Below are positions 24,173 through 36,691 of a stretch of 64,000 bases of DNA, in pieces. Source of the DNA: Erysipelotrichaceae bacterium. Its GTDB lineage: Bacteria; Bacillota_I; Bacilli_A; RFN20; CAG-449. Both the position numbers and the translations under genes were made by a program. Position 1 is the first letter of the stretch; every line of letters begins with the position of its first letter. The notes beneath the pieces were generated by a model. The model saw only the letters and a program-made list of their open reading frames with translations. It was not told where the DNA came from and did no database searches. The stretch spans positions 20,947 to 84,946 of the forward strand of contig SVBD01000006.1 of the NCBI GenBank assembly GCA_015059045.1, given 5' to 3'.

Positions 24173-24787
24173 ATGATTAATTATCCTAACAAGAAAAGAT
24201 TAGATAACAATCTATCTATAGAAGAAAAACAAATAAAAACCAAAGAAAAGAAAATTCTTTCCGCTGCAAATAGAGGAATGGATTTTGAACACGCAGTTAA
24301 CTCTTCTAACTCTTATTATGATGATAACAACATTGCAACCATTACTAAAAGACCTACTCCAATTCGTATAGTAAAAGTAGATTACGCTCATAACGCTAGA
24401 ATCGTTGATGCCTATTTTGAAAAGCAATCAACAACTGATTACAATGGAGTTTATAAAGGAAAATATATCGATTTCGAATGTAAAGAAACCAAATCAACAA
24501 CCGCGTTAACATTTAACAATATTTCTTCACATCAAATTAAGCACTTACAAAAAGTTATTAATCATGGGGGTATTGCCTTCTTTCTAATTTACTTTGTAAG
24601 TTTAAACGAAATCTATTTATTAGATGCTTCATACGTTATTGAAAGATATACTCATAAAGAAGAAAGAAAGTCCCTTGCGCTTTCCTACATCAAAGAGAAA
24701 GGTCATCTAGTTGAACAAGGCTTTATTCCTCGTCTAAAATATCTAGACGTTGTAGATAAGGTATATTTCAATGAAGAAAATAAATAA
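24173..24787 (+). CDS. recU: Holliday junction resolvase RecU
   Basis: ANRGMDFEHAVNSSN, AYFEKQSTTDYNGVYKGKYIDFECKETKS; overlaps PBP gene as in recU-ponA. Confidence 0.93.
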   Translation: MINYPNKKRLDNNLSIEEKQIKTKEKKILSAANRGMDFEHAVNSSNSYYDDNNIATITKRPTPIRIVKVDYAHNARIVDAYFEKQSTTDYNGVYKGKYIDFECKETKSTTALTFNNISSHQIKHLQKVINHGGIAFFLIYFVSLNEIYLLDASYVIERYTHKEERKSLALSYIKEKGHLVEQGFIPRLKYLDVVDKVYFNEENK

Positions 24788-27101
24788 ATCCAACTTATTC
24801 AAATTATTAATTAATACTTTTTTTATTTGTGTGTTTCTAGTTTCAACTCTACTAGGAACATTTTTATTTATTACCGTTAAAAACGAGAAATTAAAAATAG
24901 AACCTGAAAGTTTAGTTTCTCAAACGATTATTTATGATAATCATATGAATCAAATAGAAGTAATTGGCGAATCAAATGATTATCGCAAAATAGAAGAAAT
25001 ACCTCAAGTAATGATTGATGCTCTTCTTTCTATTGAAGACAACGAATTTTACTATCATAAAGGAATAAATACTAAAAGGATTATTCTTTCCTTTGTCAAT
25101 AATATTTTTTCTTCTTCCACTCAAGGTGGTTCCACTATTACTCAACAACTAATTAAAAATACCGCTTTAACTAATGAAAAAACTTATACAAGAAAAGTAA
25201 AAGAAGCATATCTAAGTATTATGATGGAAAAGGAATATACCAAAGAAGAAATATTAGAATTATATTTTAACAAAGTATACTTTGAGCAATCAGTTCCAGG
25301 AATAAACTACGCTTCTAAAATATTTTTTAATAAAGATATTTCTTTGATCAATTATTTAGAAGCCTCTATTCTTGCTTCGTTAGTTAAATCCCCTAGTTAC
25401 TATTATCCTTTTACCTATCCAGAAAGAGTAAATGAAAGAAAGAATTTAGTATTAAAAGCAATGTTAGAAAATAATACTATTACTTCAAACCAATATAACT
25501 TTGGAATTAATATTCACGCTAAAGATTTATTAGTCAAAAAAGATGTTAAATTAATTACGTCTTATCCTTATCAAGCTTACTTAGATATAGTCTATGAAGA
25601 AGTAAAAGCTATATGCAATAAAGACTTATATACTCATCCATTAATTGTAGAAACTTATCTAGACACATATCTCCAAACTCATATTGATAAAATTCAACAG
25701 GATAAAGTAATTTCTTTTACTGATGAGGAGCAACAAATAGGTGGAGTCGTAATTGATAATGATAATAGCAAAATAATTGGGGTTGTCGGTGGAAGAAACT
25801 ATAATGGCAAGAAACTTTTTAATCGCGGATATCACTTAAAAAGAAATCCCGCTAGTACAATTAAACCATTACTATCTTATCCTTTAGCAATTGAACATCT
25901 TTCCTTTCATCCGTTAACCACTATTAAAGATGAACCTTACCTTTATAAAGGAACTTCAATTAACGTTAATAATGCAGACAAAAAATATTTAGGTCCTCTC
26001 TCTTTAATTGAATCTATTGGATATTCTAGAAATACTTGCGCTGTTAAAACTTTTGATCAAGTAGTAGATAAAATTGGAATTAAAGAAGTAACTTCCTATT
26101 TAAAAGATTTAAATCTTTATGATGGAGGTAATATTACATCTTCTTATTCTTTAGGTGGAATGATGTATGGAATTTCCCCATTTCAAGTAGCAGGAGCTTA
26201 CTCTTGCTTGGCTAATCATGGTAAGTTTTTACTCCCTTCTACAATCAAAAGAATCAAGGATTACAATGGAAAAGTCCTATATGAACGCGACATTTCTTAT
26301 AAAAAAGTTCTATCCGAAGAAAGTGCTGATTTAATAACTTATTCATTAAAAAAGGTTATGGATAATAACTATTTAAATATTAATGTTTGCAAACCAAAAG
26401 GAATTGATGTGGCTTGTAAAACTGGAACTAACGCTTATGATTCTTCAACTATAAGAAAAAATAATTATCCTAAAAACGCCGATAAGGACATTTGGCTTGC
26501 TGGATATTCAAAAAACCATACTTGCGTTATCTGGACCGGATTTGATAAAAGCGAATATCAAAAGAACTACTTTACTTCTAACGATCCTAGAAAAAAGATT
26601 TCTAAATTAGTTTTCAAATCAATTATGGAAACTATTAATAAGAAAGGTGTTTTTGAATACTCTTCTTCATTACAAGAAATATCTCTAGTAAAAGGATTAG
26701 ACGAAACATATTTACCTAATGAATTTACTCCATCTTCTTATATTGTAAAAACACTAATTAATCCTAATAAAACTAGTGTTAAACCACTACCTAATTTGAC
26801 TATAGAAGAAGTAAATGATGTTAGTTGCTTTACAAGTAATAACTATGGAATATTCCAGATTAATAATCCCTTAATAGAAGATAAGATATATTCTTATTTC
26901 TATGGAGATAAAACGTATTTAATGGAAGTAACCTTACCAAATCAAAATAAAGAAATACACACTTCTAAAGAAGGATATTTTGAATATGAATTCAAAGAAA
27001 AAGGAAAGTATACTATAGAGTTTTCAATAACTTTTTCTAATAATACTTCCCTAAAAGGTTCTTCATATAAATTTACTTATTCTAAAAATGATTTTTTATA
27101 A
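24771..27101 (+). CDS. ponA: Class A penicillin-binding protein
   Basis: ALLSIEDNEFYYHKGI, GGSTITQQLIKN glycosyltransferase motifs; NPASTIKPL (SxxK) and KTGTNAYD transpeptidase motifs. Confidence 0.93.
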   Translation: MKKINKSNLFKLLINTFFICVFLVSTLLGTFLFITVKNEKLKIEPESLVSQTIIYDNHMNQIEVIGESNDYRKIEEIPQVMIDALLSIEDNEFYYHKGINTKRIILSFVNNIFSSSTQGGSTITQQLIKNTALTNEKTYTRKVKEAYLSIMMEKEYTKEEILELYFNKVYFEQSVPGINYASKIFFNKDISLINYLEASILASLVKSPSYYYPFTYPERVNERKNLVLKAMLENNTITSNQYNFGINIHAKDLLVKKDVKLITSYPYQAYLDIVYEEVKAICNKDLYTHPLIVETYLDTYLQTHIDKIQQDKVISFTDEEQQIGGVVIDNDNSKIIGVVGGRNYNGKKLFNRGYHLKRNPASTIKPLLSYPLAIEHLSFHPLTTIKDEPYLYKGTSINVNNADKKYLGPLSLIESIGYSRNTCAVKTFDQVVDKIGIKEVTSYLKDLNLYDGGNITSSYSLGGMMYGISPFQVAGAYSCLANHGKFLLPSTIKRIKDYNGKVLYERDISYKKVLSEESADLITYSLKKVMDNNYLNINVCKPKGIDVACKTGTNAYDSSTIRKNNYPKNADKDIWLAGYSKNHTCVIWTGFDKSEYQKNYFTSNDPRKKISKLVFKSIMETINKKGVFEYSSSLQEISLVKGLDETYLPNEFTPSSYIVKTLINPNKTSVKPLPNLTIEEVNDVSCFTSNNYGIFQINNPLIEDKIYSYFYGDKTYLMEVTLPNQNKEIHTSKEGYFEYEFKEKGKYTIEFSITFSNNTSLKGSSYKFTYSKNDFL

Positions 27102-27715
27102 TGAGCACATAAATGCGTCAAAGGGCAATGTTTACAATCAGGATTTTGACTTTTACACATATATCTACCAAAGAAGATTAATTGATGATGTGCTTTAATC
27201 AATCTACTTCTTGGTAGTTTTCTTTTTAACTTTAATTCTACTTCTAAAGTAGAATCATTTTCTTTTGCTAGTTTTAATCTTTTAGATACTCTTTCTACAT
27301 GAGTATCAACAGGGATTTCAGGGATCTTAAAATATTCAATTCTTACTACATTACAAGTTTTTCTTCCTACGCCTGGAAGTTCCATTAATTCTTTTCTAGA
27401 AGAAGGAACTTTACCATTATGTTTTTCAAGTAAAATAGTAGAGCACGCTTTAATATTTTTAGCTTTAGAATAGCTTAATCCAATAGAATGAATAATCTTT
27501 TCAATATCTTCTACACTAGCATCTTTAAAAGACTCTAATGAAGGATATTTACTAAATAACACTTCTGTAACTTTATTAACACTTTTATCTGTTGCTTGCG
27601 CAGATAAAATAACTGCGAATAGTAATTCGTAGTCTTTAGTATAATTTAATTCACAATGCGCATCAAAAAATTTTTCGTCTAAAAATGCAAAGATTTCTTC
27701 TACTCTATTCATCAC
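27077..27715 (-). CDS. nth: Endonuclease III
   Basis: LLFAVILSAQATDKSVNKVT, LPGVGRKTCNVV, PVDTHVERVSKRL, C-X6-C-X2-C FeS cluster CKSQNPDCKHCPLTHLC. Confidence 0.95.
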   Translation of the reverse strand: MMNRVEEIFAFLDEKFFDAHCELNYTKDYELLFAVILSAQATDKSVNKVTEVLFSKYPSLESFKDASVEDIEKIIHSIGLSYSKAKNIKACSTILLEKHNGKVPSSRKELMELPGVGRKTCNVVRIEYFKIPEIPVDTHVERVSKRLKLAKENDSTLEVELKLKRKLPRSRLIKAHHQLIFFGRYMCKSQNPDCKHCPLTHLCAHYKKSFLE

Positions 27716-28364
27716 TACTTGTCCACTTAGTATTAGCGATCCTTATTGTATCTTCAATATCTTTTTTCCATTTTTCGTTAACTGAAGAATATCCTTCTTT
27801 TTCAATATCTCTACTTGAAAGATACTTCATAATAGATTTATCAATTTGATTAATAGTAACCCTTTTAGATTTATGTTGGCATTCATGAACACAAGAAATA
27901 ATAACTTCTTCTTTAATTCCTTGAGAAATCCATTCTCTTACCTTTTCAATTTCTAATGGTGAAAGAGTTCTTCCCATTTCTTTTTGCATTAATGCAAAAA
28001 CATTATTAAACTCTTCATTAGCTTCTTTGTTTTTATTTCCTTGAGCCAATCTTAATAATTCACTTTGAAATTCAACAATAATCTTATTATATAAAGGTTC
28101 AATAGAAGTCACTAATGAATTATTATCACTAGCGTATTCAATAAAGCCACGATTAGTTAAACTAACTAATACACTATCAATTTCTTTTATTGCTATATTC
28201 ATTTTAAGCGCTAAAAGATCAGCAGTAATTAATACTTTCTCTTTCTTTAATATATTATCAATAGATAATAAAACACATAAATCGTATTCACTTAATCCAA
28301 AAGATTTATAATTATCTACTAAAAAATAACGATAATCTATTTGTTCAATTCTTAATTCATTCAT
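27705..28364 (-). CDS. dnaD: DnaD-domain replication initiation protein
   Basis: FALMQKEMGRTLSPLEIEKVREWISQGIKEEVIISCVHE; upstream of nth. Confidence 0.88.
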   Translation of the reverse strand: MNELRIEQIDYRYFLVDNYKSFGLSEYDLCVLLSIDNILKKEKVLITADLLALKMNIAIKEIDSVLVSLTNRGFIEYASDNNSLVTSIEPLYNKIIVEFQSELLRLAQGNKNKEANEEFNNVFALMQKEMGRTLSPLEIEKVREWISQGIKEEVIISCVHECQHKSKRVTINQIDKSIMKYLSSRDIEKEGYSSVNEKWKKDIEDTIRIANTKWTSSDE

Positions 28365-28372
28365 ACTTCCAC

Positions 28373-30025
28373 CTACTTACACACTTTCTTAAATACCCTT
28401 AAGAAATTCTTATAGAAAATCTTATCAATTTCTTCTTGAGTATATCCTTCTTTTACTAATGCTTCTTTTAATTCTAATGTTTTAGTTGCATCACTCATTC
28501 CATTAGGAGTAGGGATTCCATCAAAATCGCTACCTAAAGCAATTATATCAATCCCACCAACTTCTTTAATATGGTTGATATGCTTTATTATATCAGGTAT
28601 TTGATTCTTTTTGCTTGAAGAAATAAAATCCGGACAATAATTTATTCCCATAACACCTTTGTTTTTCTTTAAAGCAAGTATCATTTCATCGGTTAAATTT
28701 CTTGATACCTTGCATATTTTTCTACTATTAGAATGGCTACAGACAATTGGTTTAGTAGATAAATTAATTACATCATAAAATCCAGCATCAGATAAATGAG
28801 AAACATCAATAATCATACCTAACTCATTCATCTTTTTAACAACTTCTTTACCAAAAGGAGTTAATCCATCTACAGTATTAGGAATTCTAATATTAACTTT
28901 AGTTTTATTAGTCATATTAATATTTGGATAACCTATCTCATTAGGGAAATTCCAAGTTAACGTCATCATTCTTACCCCTAAAGAATAGAAATATTCTAAC
29001 TTTTCTAAATCCCCTTCAATTGCTCCACCTTCTTCAATAGAAAGAAGTGCAGACATCTTTTTTAAAGCTTTATTGTTTTGTAATTCTTGATAAGTTGTAA
29101 CTTGACTAATTACATGACTATTTTTATTGATTTCACTTTTAAATAATTCAATATATTTTTTTGTTGTTTCAAAAGGAGTATTAACTTTATGTAATGGAAT
29201 AAAAACTGCAAAAGTTTGCATTAAATATTCCCCTTTACTCATCTTTAAAATATCAATGTGTAAGTTATTTTTATATATTCCTTTTGTTTCAAATTCCTCT
29301 CTAGTAATAGTATCACAATGCATATCGATAACATTTAATCTTTCTTTATTAAATTCTAGAGGGATATAATCATCTACATGATGGATTTTTAGCATCCACA
29401 TTGCCTTTTCGTAAGAAAAAGCTTTCATTTTATCAATTTCATCTAAACATCTAACATAAGATACTTTTTTTAATAGATGTAAATTATCTTTAATATCTTT
29501 AACTAATCCTGGGGTTAAAGAAAAATCATAAATTAAACTAAATCTTAACGCTCTTAAGATGCGTAAAGGATCTTCTTTAAAACGAATAGAGGGCTTTCCA
29601 ATCATTGAAATAAGATGATTTTTTAAATCATCTCTACCATGATAATAATCATACACATTACCATTTTTATCGATATATAAAGCATTGATAGAAATATCTC
29701 TTCTTTTCGCATCAAGCCTTAATTCTTTAACAAAAGCAACTTTATTAGGATGACGATAATCTTTATAATCTTCTTCTACTCTTAAAGTTGTTATGTCTAC
29801 TTTGTGACCTAAAAAAGAAATATGCACACTACCAATAGATACAAACGATTCATCAAAAGACAGAAACTCTTTCATTTGAGAAGGTGTTGCATCGCTGACA
29901 AAATCAAAGTCTAATATTTCTCTGCCTAAAAGATAATCTCTACTAGTCCCACCTACCATAAATAGGGCATAACCATTTTGAGAAAAAATCTTTTCAAGTT
30001 CCAAATAGACTTTTGGTAATTCCAC
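28373..30025 (-). CDS. Fusion: CCA tRNA nucleotidyltransferase head/neck + M19 membrane dipeptidase
   Basis: aa 1-~225: FMVGGTSRDYLLGREILDFDFVSDA, DAKRRDISINALYID, FKEDPLRILRALRFS; aa ~230-550: VIDMHCDTI, LLSIEEGGAI, MIIDVSHLSDAGFYDV, SHSNSRKI, LGSDFDGIPTP. Junction near 29344 reads continuously. Confidence 0.88.
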   Translation of the reverse strand: MELPKVYLELEKIFSQNGYALFMVGGTSRDYLLGREILDFDFVSDATPSQMKEFLSFDESFVSIGSVHISFLGHKVDITTLRVEEDYKDYRHPNKVAFVKELRLDAKRRDISINALYIDKNGNVYDYYHGRDDLKNHLISMIGKPSIRFKEDPLRILRALRFSLIYDFSLTPGLVKDIKDNLHLLKKVSYVRCLDEIDKMKAFSYEKAMWMLKIHHVDDYIPLEFNKERLNVIDMHCDTITREEFETKGIYKNNLHIDILKMSKGEYLMQTFAVFIPLHKVNTPFETTKKYIELFKSEINKNSHVISQVTTYQELQNNKALKKMSALLSIEEGGAIEGDLEKLEYFYSLGVRMMTLTWNFPNEIGYPNINMTNKTKVNIRIPNTVDGLTPFGKEVVKKMNELGMIIDVSHLSDAGFYDVINLSTKPIVCSHSNSRKICKVSRNLTDEMILALKKNKGVMGINYCPDFISSSKKNQIPDIIKHINHIKEVGGIDIIALGSDFDGIPTPNGMSDATKTLELKEALVKEGYTQEEIDKIFYKNFLRVFKKVCK

Positions 30026-30117: not shown

Positions 30118-30193
30118 GGGTATTTAGCTCAGCTGGGAGAGCATCTGTTTGACGTACAGAAGGTCGGGGGTTCGATTCCCTCAGTACCCACCA
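30118..30193 (+). tRNA. tRNA-Val (anticodon GAC), CCA encoded
   Basis: Cloverleaf: acceptor GGGTATT/AGTACCC, anticodon loop TTGACGT, T-arm GGGGGTTCGATTCCCTC, 3' ACCA. Confidence 0.95.
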
Positions 30194-30246: not shown

Positions 30247-31011
30247 TTAATTTTCTTCTCTATCATTCATCATTGAGATGAATTCGTTTAAGAAATTATC
30301 ATAAGAACAACTTTCCATTGTTCCTTTATATGTTAAAGAAATTCTTCCAGTTTCTTCACTGACAACAATTGTAACCGCATCACTTACTTCACTGATACCA
30401 AATGCAGCACGATGTCTTGCACCATATTTACCAGTTAAAGCTCTAGTTGTTGGAGTGTAATAAACCGAAGCGGCTAAAATTGTATCACCACGAATAATTA
30501 CAGCACCATCGTGAAGTCTAGTTCCTGGATAGAAAATAGTTAATAATAATTCATAACATAATGGAGCGTTTAATCTTGTTCCACTCTTACTAATATCTGA
30601 TAAATTTGTAGTTTTTTCAAAAGTAATAATCGCACCTACTTTATTTCTTGATAAATGTTTTACCGCATCAGAAATAATTTTATACTTTGCTTCATCAGAA
30701 ACATTATTAATTTGAGTCTTCTTTCTTGAAGAAACGTTATTTAAAATGTAGTAACGATATTCACTACCATTTACCATAACATAAATAACTCCAGTAGCAA
30801 TTAAAAAACCTACTGATAATAATGTAACTGTTTCAAACGCAAATACTTTACTAACAACAAATAAAATATCTGCGACAATAATTGAGATTATAACAAACTT
30901 TCTTTTCATTTTAGAAAGTAATAAATACGAAACAAAAGCAAGTATTAGTAGGCTAATACCAAAGTCTAACAAGAAGAAGATATTTGAAAAACGTTCAATA
31001 ATTTCTTTCAT
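30247..31011 (-). CDS. cdaA: Diadenylate cyclase, CdaA type
   Basis: TM helices then GAIITFEKTTNLSDI, LHDGAVIIRGD (DGA), GARHRAAFGISE (RHR). Confidence 0.92.
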   Translation of the reverse strand: MKEIIERFSNIFFLLDFGISLLILAFVSYLLLSKMKRKFVIISIIVADILFVVSKVFAFETVTLLSVGFLIATGVIYVMVNGSEYRYYILNNVSSRKKTQINNVSDEAKYKIISDAVKHLSRNKVGAIITFEKTTNLSDISKSGTRLNAPLCYELLLTIFYPGTRLHDGAVIIRGDTILAASVYYTPTTRALTGKYGARHRAAFGISEVSDAVTIVVSEETGRISLTYKGTMESCSYDNFLNEFISMMNDREEN

Positions 31012-33267: not shown

Positions 33268-34554
33268 TTACTTTGCTTTAATTTCTTCTAAATATTTAGC
33301 TTCTTCTTCACTATTACAATATACAAAGTGACCCGGAACGATTTCTCTCATTGTAGGTTTTTCCTTTGAATAATCATGATCCATTAATGGATTATATGTA
33401 ATTCTCTTTCTTGCCTTTTCATAAACTGGGTCAGGTAAAGGAATTGCAGATAATAACGATTTTGTATATGGATGAAGAGGATGTTTGAATAATTCATCAG
33501 ATGTTGTTAATTCAACAATCTTACCAAAATACATAACTGCAATACGATCTGAGAAATATTTTACAACTGATAAGTCGTGAGCGATAAATAGAATTGTTAA
33601 TCCCATTTTTTCTCTTAAATCGTTTAATAAGTTAATAACTTGAGCTTGAATTGAAACGTCTAAAGCAGAAACTGGTTCGTCAGCAATAATTAATTCTGGA
33701 TTTAATACAATCGCACGAGCGATACCAATACGTTGACGTTGTCCACCAGAGAATTCATGAGGATAACGACCAGCATGTTCTGGAACTAAACCAACTAATT
33801 CTAATACGCGATAAACTTGTTCATCAATAAACTTTTTATCTTTAACACCACGAATAATTAAACCTTCTGCGATAATATCACGGACTGTCATACGTGGGTC
33901 AAGTGAAGCAATAGGATCTTGGAAGATCATTTGCATTTTATTAGTAATACGATCCTTTTTAGCAAATCTTAAAGCTTCTTTATATTCCCTTTGAAGAACT
34001 TCTCTTTTTTGTTCGTCCATTTCTTTTTCAATTAATGGGAGATATTTATCAGAAACTTTTTGCATTTCGTATTTAGCAAATTCTTTATTACAGTTTTTGT
34101 GATCAAATTTTGCACTACGAATCTTTTCTGTATTTTCTTTTACTACTTCTAATAATTCTGCTTCTTTTTCTTTTAATGCATCTTGATAAGCTTTATTTGC
34201 AAGTTCTTTAGATTCACCATTTTCAAGATCTCTTTTTAATTTTTCTTGAAGAACCGATCTTTCTTGTTTGTATTTTAATTTAGCTTGTTTAACAGCAGCT
34301 TTATACTGACGAATACCAGCGCAGATTCTTTTACCATCAAGATAAACAGAACCACCAGTAATGTCATATAAACGAATTATTGATCTACCTGTTGTTGTTT
34401 TACCACATCCAGATTCACCAACTAAACCTAAAACTTCACCTTTATAAAGTTCGAAGTTTACATCATCAACAGCTTTTAAATAACGAAGTTTTCCTAATTT
34501 AAAATATTGTTCAAGGTGTTCAACTTTTAATAATACTTCTTTATTATTTTCCAT
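33268..34554 (-). CDS. oppF: Oligopeptide ABC transporter ATP-binding protein OppF with ~125-aa insertion
   Basis: GESGCGKTTTGRSIIRL, QMIFQDPIASLDPRMTV, HEFSGGQRQRIGIARA. Confidence 0.92.
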   Translation of the reverse strand: MENNKEVLLKVEHLEQYFKLGKLRYLKAVDDVNFELYKGEVLGLVGESGCGKTTTGRSIIRLYDITGGSVYLDGKRICAGIRQYKAAVKQAKLKYKQERSVLQEKLKRDLENGESKELANKAYQDALKEKEAELLEVVKENTEKIRSAKFDHKNCNKEFAKYEMQKVSDKYLPLIEKEMDEQKREVLQREYKEALRFAKKDRITNKMQMIFQDPIASLDPRMTVRDIIAEGLIIRGVKDKKFIDEQVYRVLELVGLVPEHAGRYPHEFSGGQRQRIGIARAIVLNPELIIADEPVSALDVSIQAQVINLLNDLREKMGLTILFIAHDLSVVKYFSDRIAVMYFGKIVELTTSDELFKHPLHPYTKSLLSAIPLPDPVYEKARKRITYNPLMDHDYSKEKPTMREIVPGHFVYCNSEEEAKYLEEIKAK

Positions 34555-36691
34555 TGTTCTTCACCTCTTTCTTCATACGTTTAATTCTTTCAGTAATAAT
34601 CTTTGGTGGATTAACTTTTGGTGCATCTTCATGTAATAACCATGTAGCAGCATAGTGAGTTTTAGAAACTTCAAATAATGGAGGTTCCATTTCAAAGTCG
34701 ATTTCTAATGCATATTTATTTCTATCTGCAAAAGCATCACCTTTAGGTGGATAAATCATATTTGGTGGAGTTCCTGGAATTGCTTCTAGTTTTTCTTTTG
34801 TTTCTAAATCTGGCATACTACTTAATAATGCCCAAGTATATGGATGTTTTGGATCATAGAAAATATCTTCGCTTGTACCATATTCTACAATCTTACCAGC
34901 ATACATAACTGCGATTCTATCAGCCATATTAGCAACAACACCTAAATCGTGAGTAATAAAGATAACTGATAAATTTCTTTGAACTTTAATTCTATTAATT
35001 AATTCAAGGATTTGTGATTGAATTGTAACGTCTAATGCAGTTGTAGGTTCATCACAGATAAGAATATCTGGGTTAGCAGATAAAGCAATAGCAATAACGA
35101 TTCTTTGTCTCATACCACCTGAGAATTCAAATGGATATTGTTTAAATCTAATTGCTGGTTCTGGAATACCTACTTCTTTCATTAATTCAAGAGCTCTAGC
35201 TTTAGCCAAACCTTTTGTTACTTTATAAACTACTTTAGATGCTTCTTCTTTTAAGAAATCAACTAATGCAATCATTTCTTTCTTAGCGTCAAATTCATCT
35301 TTGTGTTTAATGTCACTTTCAATACTCTTAATTAAATAATGAACAATTTTAGCGATGTTTTCTTTTGTTAAATCTAAATCAACTAATGCAGGAGGAACAA
35401 CTTTCCATGTTGGAGATTTTCCTTTTTCTACAAGAGCATCATATTTTGCTTTGTTCTTTTCATATTTTCTAGTGTTCTTTGGATTTGTTTTTTCACCATA
35501 GAAATAACGTTTAATTTCATGGTTAATAGAAATTCCAAATGAGTATTCAACACTTCTCTTATGAACGTTAAGATAGTCAATAGCTTCTTTTAATTCAGCA
35601 CTTACAGTTTTTACTTTGTTTTCTAGAATAGATTTAGTAAGTCTTTCACTTTCAGAAACATACTTATATAAGTCATTTAATTTAATTAACAATTGTTGTT
35701 TTCTTTCAATTGATTTTTCATGTGAATGTAAAATACCTGTGCTACCTAATTCAATGAATTGATTCATATAATTTTCATCAAGGTATTTTTTAGTTAAATC
35801 ATTTAATTCATCAACTGGAATACTTGTAAAATCAAATTCTGGATTTTTTAAGATATAATAACCTAAACGGAAATAGTTTGGTTTTTGTTTTTCTAACCCT
35901 TTATTAATTAAATTTACTGTTTTTTCAAGTAAATTGATCATGTCTTCTGGATTAGTTTTCTTTCCATAAATGAAATATTCTAATGCTTTAGTTTGGATTT
36001 GTTGATATTCTTCATCATCAGAAACTAAGAATGGATTAATAGTTTTTACTAAATTTGATTTTAAATTTCTTAAAACCTTACGATAATCAACTTTTTGTTT
36101 TTTCGAAATTAAGAATGCAGTAGTTTCTAATTCTGTTTTTAATGAAACAGCTGCTTCTTGAGCGTTATTGTATGCTTGTTCTAATTCTGTACCTTTGATA
36201 CAGAAAGCATCGAAAGTATGACATTGATTTTTATTATTTTCAACATCATTATTTTTTTCATCAAGTGCTTTATTTAATAAAGCAAGTTTTCCATTAAATT
36301 CTTTTTTAGCGCTTTTTTGACGTAATTTACCATTCAAAATCATCGCTTCAGTTAATTGGTGTCCAACTCTAACGATTGGATTTAAACTTGATAATGGATC
36401 TTGGAAGATCATTGAAATTTTATCTCCACGAATTTTGTGGAAATCATCTTCCGAAATCTTTAATAAATCTTGTCCGTCGTACAAGATTTCTCCACCTTCA
36501 ACAATTGAGTTACCTGCTAAAATACCAATAATGGCTTTACTAGTTACTGATTTGCCAGAGCCTGATTCACCTACGATAGCAAGTGTTTCACCTTTGTATA
36601 AATCGAAAGAAATATTTCTAACAGCTTTAACAATACCACCTTGAGTTCTGAAGGATACTTGTAAATTTTTAACTTCTAATTTCTTTTCCAT
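34544..36691 (-). CDS. oppD: Oligopeptide ABC transporter ATP-binding protein OppD with ~370-aa insertion
   Basis: GESGSGKSVTSKAIIG, SMIFQDPLSSLNP, FEFSGGMRQRIVIAIAL, ICDEPTTALDVTIQ. Confidence 0.92.
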   Translation of the reverse strand: MEKKLEVKNLQVSFRTQGGIVKAVRNISFDLYKGETLAIVGESGSGKSVTSKAIIGILAGNSIVEGGEILYDGQDLLKISEDDFHKIRGDKISMIFQDPLSSLNPIVRVGHQLTEAMILNGKLRQKSAKKEFNGKLALLNKALDEKNNDVENNKNQCHTFDAFCIKGTELEQAYNNAQEAAVSLKTELETTAFLISKKQKVDYRKVLRNLKSNLVKTINPFLVSDDEEYQQIQTKALEYFIYGKKTNPEDMINLLEKTVNLINKGLEKQKPNYFRLGYYILKNPEFDFTSIPVDELNDLTKKYLDENYMNQFIELGSTGILHSHEKSIERKQQLLIKLNDLYKYVSESERLTKSILENKVKTVSAELKEAIDYLNVHKRSVEYSFGISINHEIKRYFYGEKTNPKNTRKYEKNKAKYDALVEKGKSPTWKVVPPALVDLDLTKENIAKIVHYLIKSIESDIKHKDEFDAKKEMIALVDFLKEEASKVVYKVTKGLAKARALELMKEVGIPEPAIRFKQYPFEFSGGMRQRIVIAIALSANPDILICDEPTTALDVTIQSQILELINRIKVQRNLSVIFITHDLGVVANMADRIAVMYAGKIVEYGTSEDIFYDPKHPYTWALLSSMPDLETKEKLEAIPGTPPNMIYPPKGDAFADRNKYALEIDFEMEPPLFEVSKTHYAATWLLHEDAPKVNPPKIITERIKRMKKEVKNNGK

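Follow-up and report, generated by a model that had tools for sequence, protein, structure and literature searches.

The locus raises the question of whether a tRNA nucleotidyltransferase lacking body and tail is genuinely joined to an M19 dipeptidase, and what the joint protein does. The gene is situated on the (-) strand at 28373..30025 of the window (the whole stretch of 64,000 nucleotides that was analysed), starts with GTG and encodes 550 aa in one uninterrupted frame. A sequence-only reading had described CCA enzyme head motifs followed by a complete-looking M19 domain, with body and tail missing. The frame, the quoted motifs and the coordinates were confirmed by the ORF and by Pfam and solved-structure matches, and the domain composition by PF01743, full-length PF01244 and an EDPLR neck motif.

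The head domain (aa 1-139; 29609..30025, (-)) comprises motif A (GGTSRD/DFD), D77 and RRD, and is matched by PF01743 at aa 21-139 (E 4.9e-30). The catalytic D39-x-D41 (29903..29911, (-)) and the RRD motif (aa 108-110; 29696..29704, (-)) show no variation among the 18 proteins of the family. In the neck domain (aa 140-214; 29384..29608, (-)) the base-selecting EDPLR is found at aa 151-155, and thus the class II head motifs (GGxxRD, DxD, RRD) are present together with the neck EDxxR motif. The CCA homology ends after the neck, body and tail being absent, and M19 homology sets in from aa ~214-229. A linker (aa 215-229; 29339..29383, (-)) with a D-x-x-[ILV]-P-like element, common to the fusions of the family, leads into the complete M19 domain (aa 230-550; 28376..29338, (-)), to which PF01244 aligns at aa 228-547 over profile positions 4-319 of 319 (E 6.6e-99, 331.5 bits). 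The metal-ligand motif H236-C-D238 (29312..29320, (-)) occurs in 14 of 14 intact fusions; the other active-site residues of the M19 part are E331, H410, H431, R442, and D500.

A comparison with solved structures pairs aa 14-228 with the Bacillus stearothermophilus CCA enzyme 1miv, and aa 230-544 with Listeria lmo2462. With the class II CCA enzymes of Bacilli (1miv and 6qy6 of the psychrophilic Planococcus) the fusion shares the head/neck fold of ~219 residues (rmsd about 2.4 Å, about 33% identity) and the catalytic motifs, but it lacks body and tail (about 220 aa compared to about 390) and has gained a C-terminal M19 domain. The likeness to M19 dipeptidases (lmo2462, 3neh/3lu2; human renal dipeptidase, 1itq) extends over the whole domain and the zinc and substrate residues checked. 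In contrast to these enzymes, the N-terminus of the fusion is the nucleotidyltransferase itself, and the fused M19 is therefore presumably cytosolic.

The same in-frame fusion was found in 14 of the 18 genomes of the family, in each case as one single frame and with 42-71% identity, as the sequence-only reading had suggested looking for in related genomes. The intact fusions are distributed over three genera, namely all eight genomes of the own genus, four of g3, and two of g4. The third g4 genome, G010, contains a fifteenth fusion with a degenerate M19 and a dead active site, and the three g2 genomes encode a frame of 328-332 aa without recognisable M19. No M19-bearing family member has the two domains split. 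Among named records, the fusion occurs solely in assemblies from uncultured bacteria, which carry the labels Bacilli, Bacillales or Erysipelotrichaceae. A search over 398 genomes of the phylum listed no match with the fusion outside the family, and the long open frames inspected in other families encode full-length or short CCA enzymes, not cca joined to another partner. A separate M19 made from an internal translation start was also considered and rejected, since start positions are not conserved before the HCD motif: within the preceding 35 codons no start codon is conserved across the fusions, and L005 and L017 lack any.

Two independent fusion events were considered, since g4 stands apart from g1+g3 in the M19 tree. 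The AU test, however, does not reject a single origin (p 0.178), and the linker element is common to all fusions, in g4 and g1+g3 alike. In g2, M19 may have been lost or may never have been present, the branching order of the genera favouring neither. The C-terminal tail of the g2 proteins (~110 aa) shows a weak similarity to M19 in hhalign (P 0.015, probability 3%), with a score that 2 of 200 column shuffles also reach, and may represent a further-reduced M19 remnant.

The fusion is thus genuine, but the loss of body and tail, which the sequence-only reading had treated as part of it, did not belong to the fusion event: throughout this order of reduced Bacilli, an M19-free form of head and neck only is the norm and occupies the same locus. 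Of the 131 genomes of the order that were listed outside the family, 114 have solely a short PF01743 protein (203-270 aa). These proteins end just past the neck, and the short frames have a median of 226 aa with extra rows of another PF01743 listing pooled in; elsewhere in the class, CCA enzymes usually have about 360-460 aa (~390 aa). The stand-alone short cca (about 205-250 aa) shares head, neck and locus with the fused gene and differs by the missing M19.

Directly downstream of the fused gene lies a dnaD-like gene (27705..28364, (-)), which is a neighbour of cca across the order. Further conserved neighbours are nth, encoding endonuclease III (27077..27715, (-)), and recU (24173..24787, (+)), and in many loci of the family ponA (24771-27101) is located between nth and recU. 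This set of dnaD, nth, ponA, and recU resembles the corresponding region of B. subtilis. The dnaD gene adjoins the short cca, the fused cca, and the g2 gene alike, in most loci together with nth and recU. The order cca-dnaD-nth-recU is common to the fused locus and the unfused short cca of family f4, and cca-dnaD-nth to the fused locus and the unfused short cca of family f5. Due to these common neighbours, the gene is taken to have been inherited vertically at one locus, with body and tail lost first and M19 added later. As judged from the sequence comparisons, the fusion and this history are near certain: the loss of body and tail almost certainly predates the fusion, and the addition of M19 followed later and was confined to this family. 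The fusion is real and conserved, and constitutes a new domain architecture on an order-wide truncated CCA enzyme.

The number and type of PF01743 proteins vary in some members of the order. In genus g23 (G040, G044, G048, G127, G168) two matches per genome were observed instead of the usual one, and in G035, G076, G095, G141, and G177, three of which are >90% complete, there were none. In G042, G083, G090, and G136 of family f4 and in several f5 genomes, a short cca was not found but a full-length CCA enzyme is encoded; the two f4 sequences that were read are HD-type.

A tRNA-Val(gac) gene with encoded CCA is present next to the fused gene (30118..30193, (+)), as had been pointed out from the sequence, but this vicinity is not special. 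The genome, 1.44 Mb in 33 contigs and 95% complete, yielded 39 distinct tRNA predictions, of which two are cut by contig ends, and the remaining 37 complete ones all encode CCA, so that the enzyme is required for repair only. Within the class, the listed genomes of the apparently Mycoplasma-like families f11 and f22 gave no PF01743 match, and this absence fits a relaxed need for the enzyme where CCA is encoded. Highly reduced genomes have been described for RF39, an uncultured order of Bacilli (PMC6784871); the window may come from a member of this order.

Adjoining the tRNA-Val gene, a CdaA-type diadenylate cyclase is encoded at 30247-31011 (-), scoring 166.6 bits compared to the curated CdaA cut-off of 188.8. 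At 33268-36691 (-), two adjacent genes encode OppD/OppF-type ABC-transporter ATPases of 428 and 715 aa. As read from the translations, the former seems to contain a coiled insertion of ~100 aa between Walker A and the signature motif, and the latter an insertion of about 300 aa.

All 18 family proteins share G25, G26, R29, D30, D39, D41, R108, R109, D110, and N114 of the head as well as E151, D152, R155, R158, and R161; the third carboxylate, D77, is retained in 17 of them and replaced by a conservative E in one. All seven M19 residues (H236, D238, E331, H410, H431, R442, D500), which we take to have the zinc and substrate roles of their counterparts in renal dipeptidase, are present in the 14 intact fusions and are invariant in a 19-row alignment including solo M19s. 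Comparisons of relatives gave roughly similar rates of evolution for head plus neck and for M19. Both active sites are intact in the fused protein of the window, and two working sites are likely.

We consider it probable that the gene encodes a conserved bifunctional protein for CCA-end repair and cytosolic dipeptide hydrolysis, in which M19 would also provide structural support. According to this proposal, the ancestral cca of the order shrank to catalytic head and neck while staying at its old locus, and a complete M19 dipeptidase was then added in frame in this family, two steps that can be read from the sequences. Head and neck would repair damaged CCA ends of tRNAs, presumably a lighter task than building CCA, since each complete tRNA gene found encodes it. 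The M19 part would cleave dipeptides in the cytosol. Packed against the neck in a fixed position, this C-terminal domain could also stabilise or position the nucleotidyltransferase, standing in for the lost body and tail. Such a supporting role is plausible and is drawn mainly from G010 and the structure model.

Alternatively, the stop codon between neighbouring genes may have been lost, each enzyme working alone in a join that is harmless and hard to split. We regard this explanation as possible but doubtful. It would agree with tRNA repair and dipeptide hydrolysis having no known functional connection, with genus g2, which has no recognisable M19, and with the unfused short enzymes elsewhere in the order, which evidently manage without M19 and thereby also speak against a supporting role. 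The closest solo M19s, encoded by separate genes at other loci of Erysipelotrichia, have about 57-60% identity to the fused M19. For three of the nearest (L041, L044, L048), the genes immediately upstream encode MetN- and MetI-type transporters, a gene order suggesting uptake and cleavage of methionine-containing dipeptides. The nutritional role implied by it also speaks for two enzymes working alone, and suggests a nutritional dipeptidase as the donor of the fused M19. Against mere coexistence of two enzymes stand the conservation of the fusion across three genera (42-49% identity), unsplit in every M19-bearing family member, the confident interdomain packing in the AlphaFold2 model, and the M19 frame of G010, still open after the loss of the active site.

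The latter two observations lead to a stronger form of the supporting role, in which M19 was recruited as a tRNA-holding or scaffold substitute for body and tail, took over a structural or tRNA-positioning job, and in one lineage gave up catalysis to be kept only for that job. In G010, six of the seven active-site residues (H236, D238, H410, H431, R442, D500) are lost, every head and neck motif checked is kept, and about 270 codons remain open to the same C-terminal end. Neutral simulations, in which the DNA of G008 or G009 was mutated to the same or a much smaller divergence (200 runs per setting), yielded 0 of 200 stop-free runs in any setting and a mean of 8 to 20 stops. Judged by the open frame in this one draft genome of one lineage, the C-terminal domain is thus probably selected for something besides catalysis. 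The AlphaFold2 model, built with 19 sequences, has a mean pLDDT of 92.4 and a pTM of 0.87 for the whole fusion, whose two domains have 220 and 320 aa. As a loose tether would be expected near 0.6, the domain placement is predicted with confidence. In Foldseek, the M19 part of the model aligns to lmo2462 with a target-normalised TM of 0.91, and head plus neck to 6qy6 over 219 columns at 2.4 Å. The possible remnant in g2 would point in the same direction, but that similarity is weak, a basic patch on M19 could not be shown, and the zinc site is complete in all 14 other fusions, where catalysis therefore matters. Recruitment of M19 to replace body and tail, in some lineages as its sole role, is rather unlikely in our estimation. 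The fused M19 is less acidic (-1.9) than the Erysipelotrichia solo M19s (-14.5); the same holds for solo M19s of the order itself, and the shift was rejected as a sign of RNA binding since it is confounded by lineage.

Bifunctionality presupposes that head and neck still add CCA, which remains a putative activity read from the sequence. In class II CCA enzymes, binding of the tRNA elbow is ascribed to the C-terminal part (PMC3925840, PMC7730189, PMC12013499), and the absence of this part counts against CCA activity of head plus neck. Together with a pathway that could be relaxed by CCA-encoding tRNA genes, this would allow another nucleotidyl transfer or a regulatory job. Such a change of function seems improbable to us, as all motifs checked are kept in the 18 family proteins and the best curated family match of head and neck is the CCA tRNA nucleotidyltransferase model. 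The fused protein scores 197.5 bits against the CCA equivalog NF009814, below the cut-off of 290 as expected for a truncated member, and only 125 bits against the PcnB model (cut-off 305.65). Furthermore, the 550-aa ORF is the one PF01743 match and the one PF01244 match of the host genome, and the search for a second, complete CCA enzyme there, proposed from the sequence, found none. Across the order, 17 of the 131 genomes listed outside the family have a full-length CCA enzyme, several of them without the short one, as if the short cca had been displaced by it in the f4 and f5 genomes; this is expected if the short form is the working CCA enzyme.

An assembly or binning artefact, conceivable for a draft of 33 contigs, was rejected as the same in-frame junction recurs in independent assemblies of three genera, which excludes chance or a chimeric contig.

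In the open-licence literature we found neither an earlier description of a tRNA nucleotidyltransferase-dipeptidase fusion nor a report of a natural CCA enzyme consisting of head and neck only. The pairing of M19 with a CCA enzyme joins domains without a described functional link, and the relatives provide a natural series with no M19, an active M19, and a dead M19. A small tRNA-repair enzyme without the usual tRNA-holding half raises the question of how CCA addition works. An order of gut bacteria appears to use head and neck only, and the need for body and tail would be testable with its natural proteins of ~220 aa.
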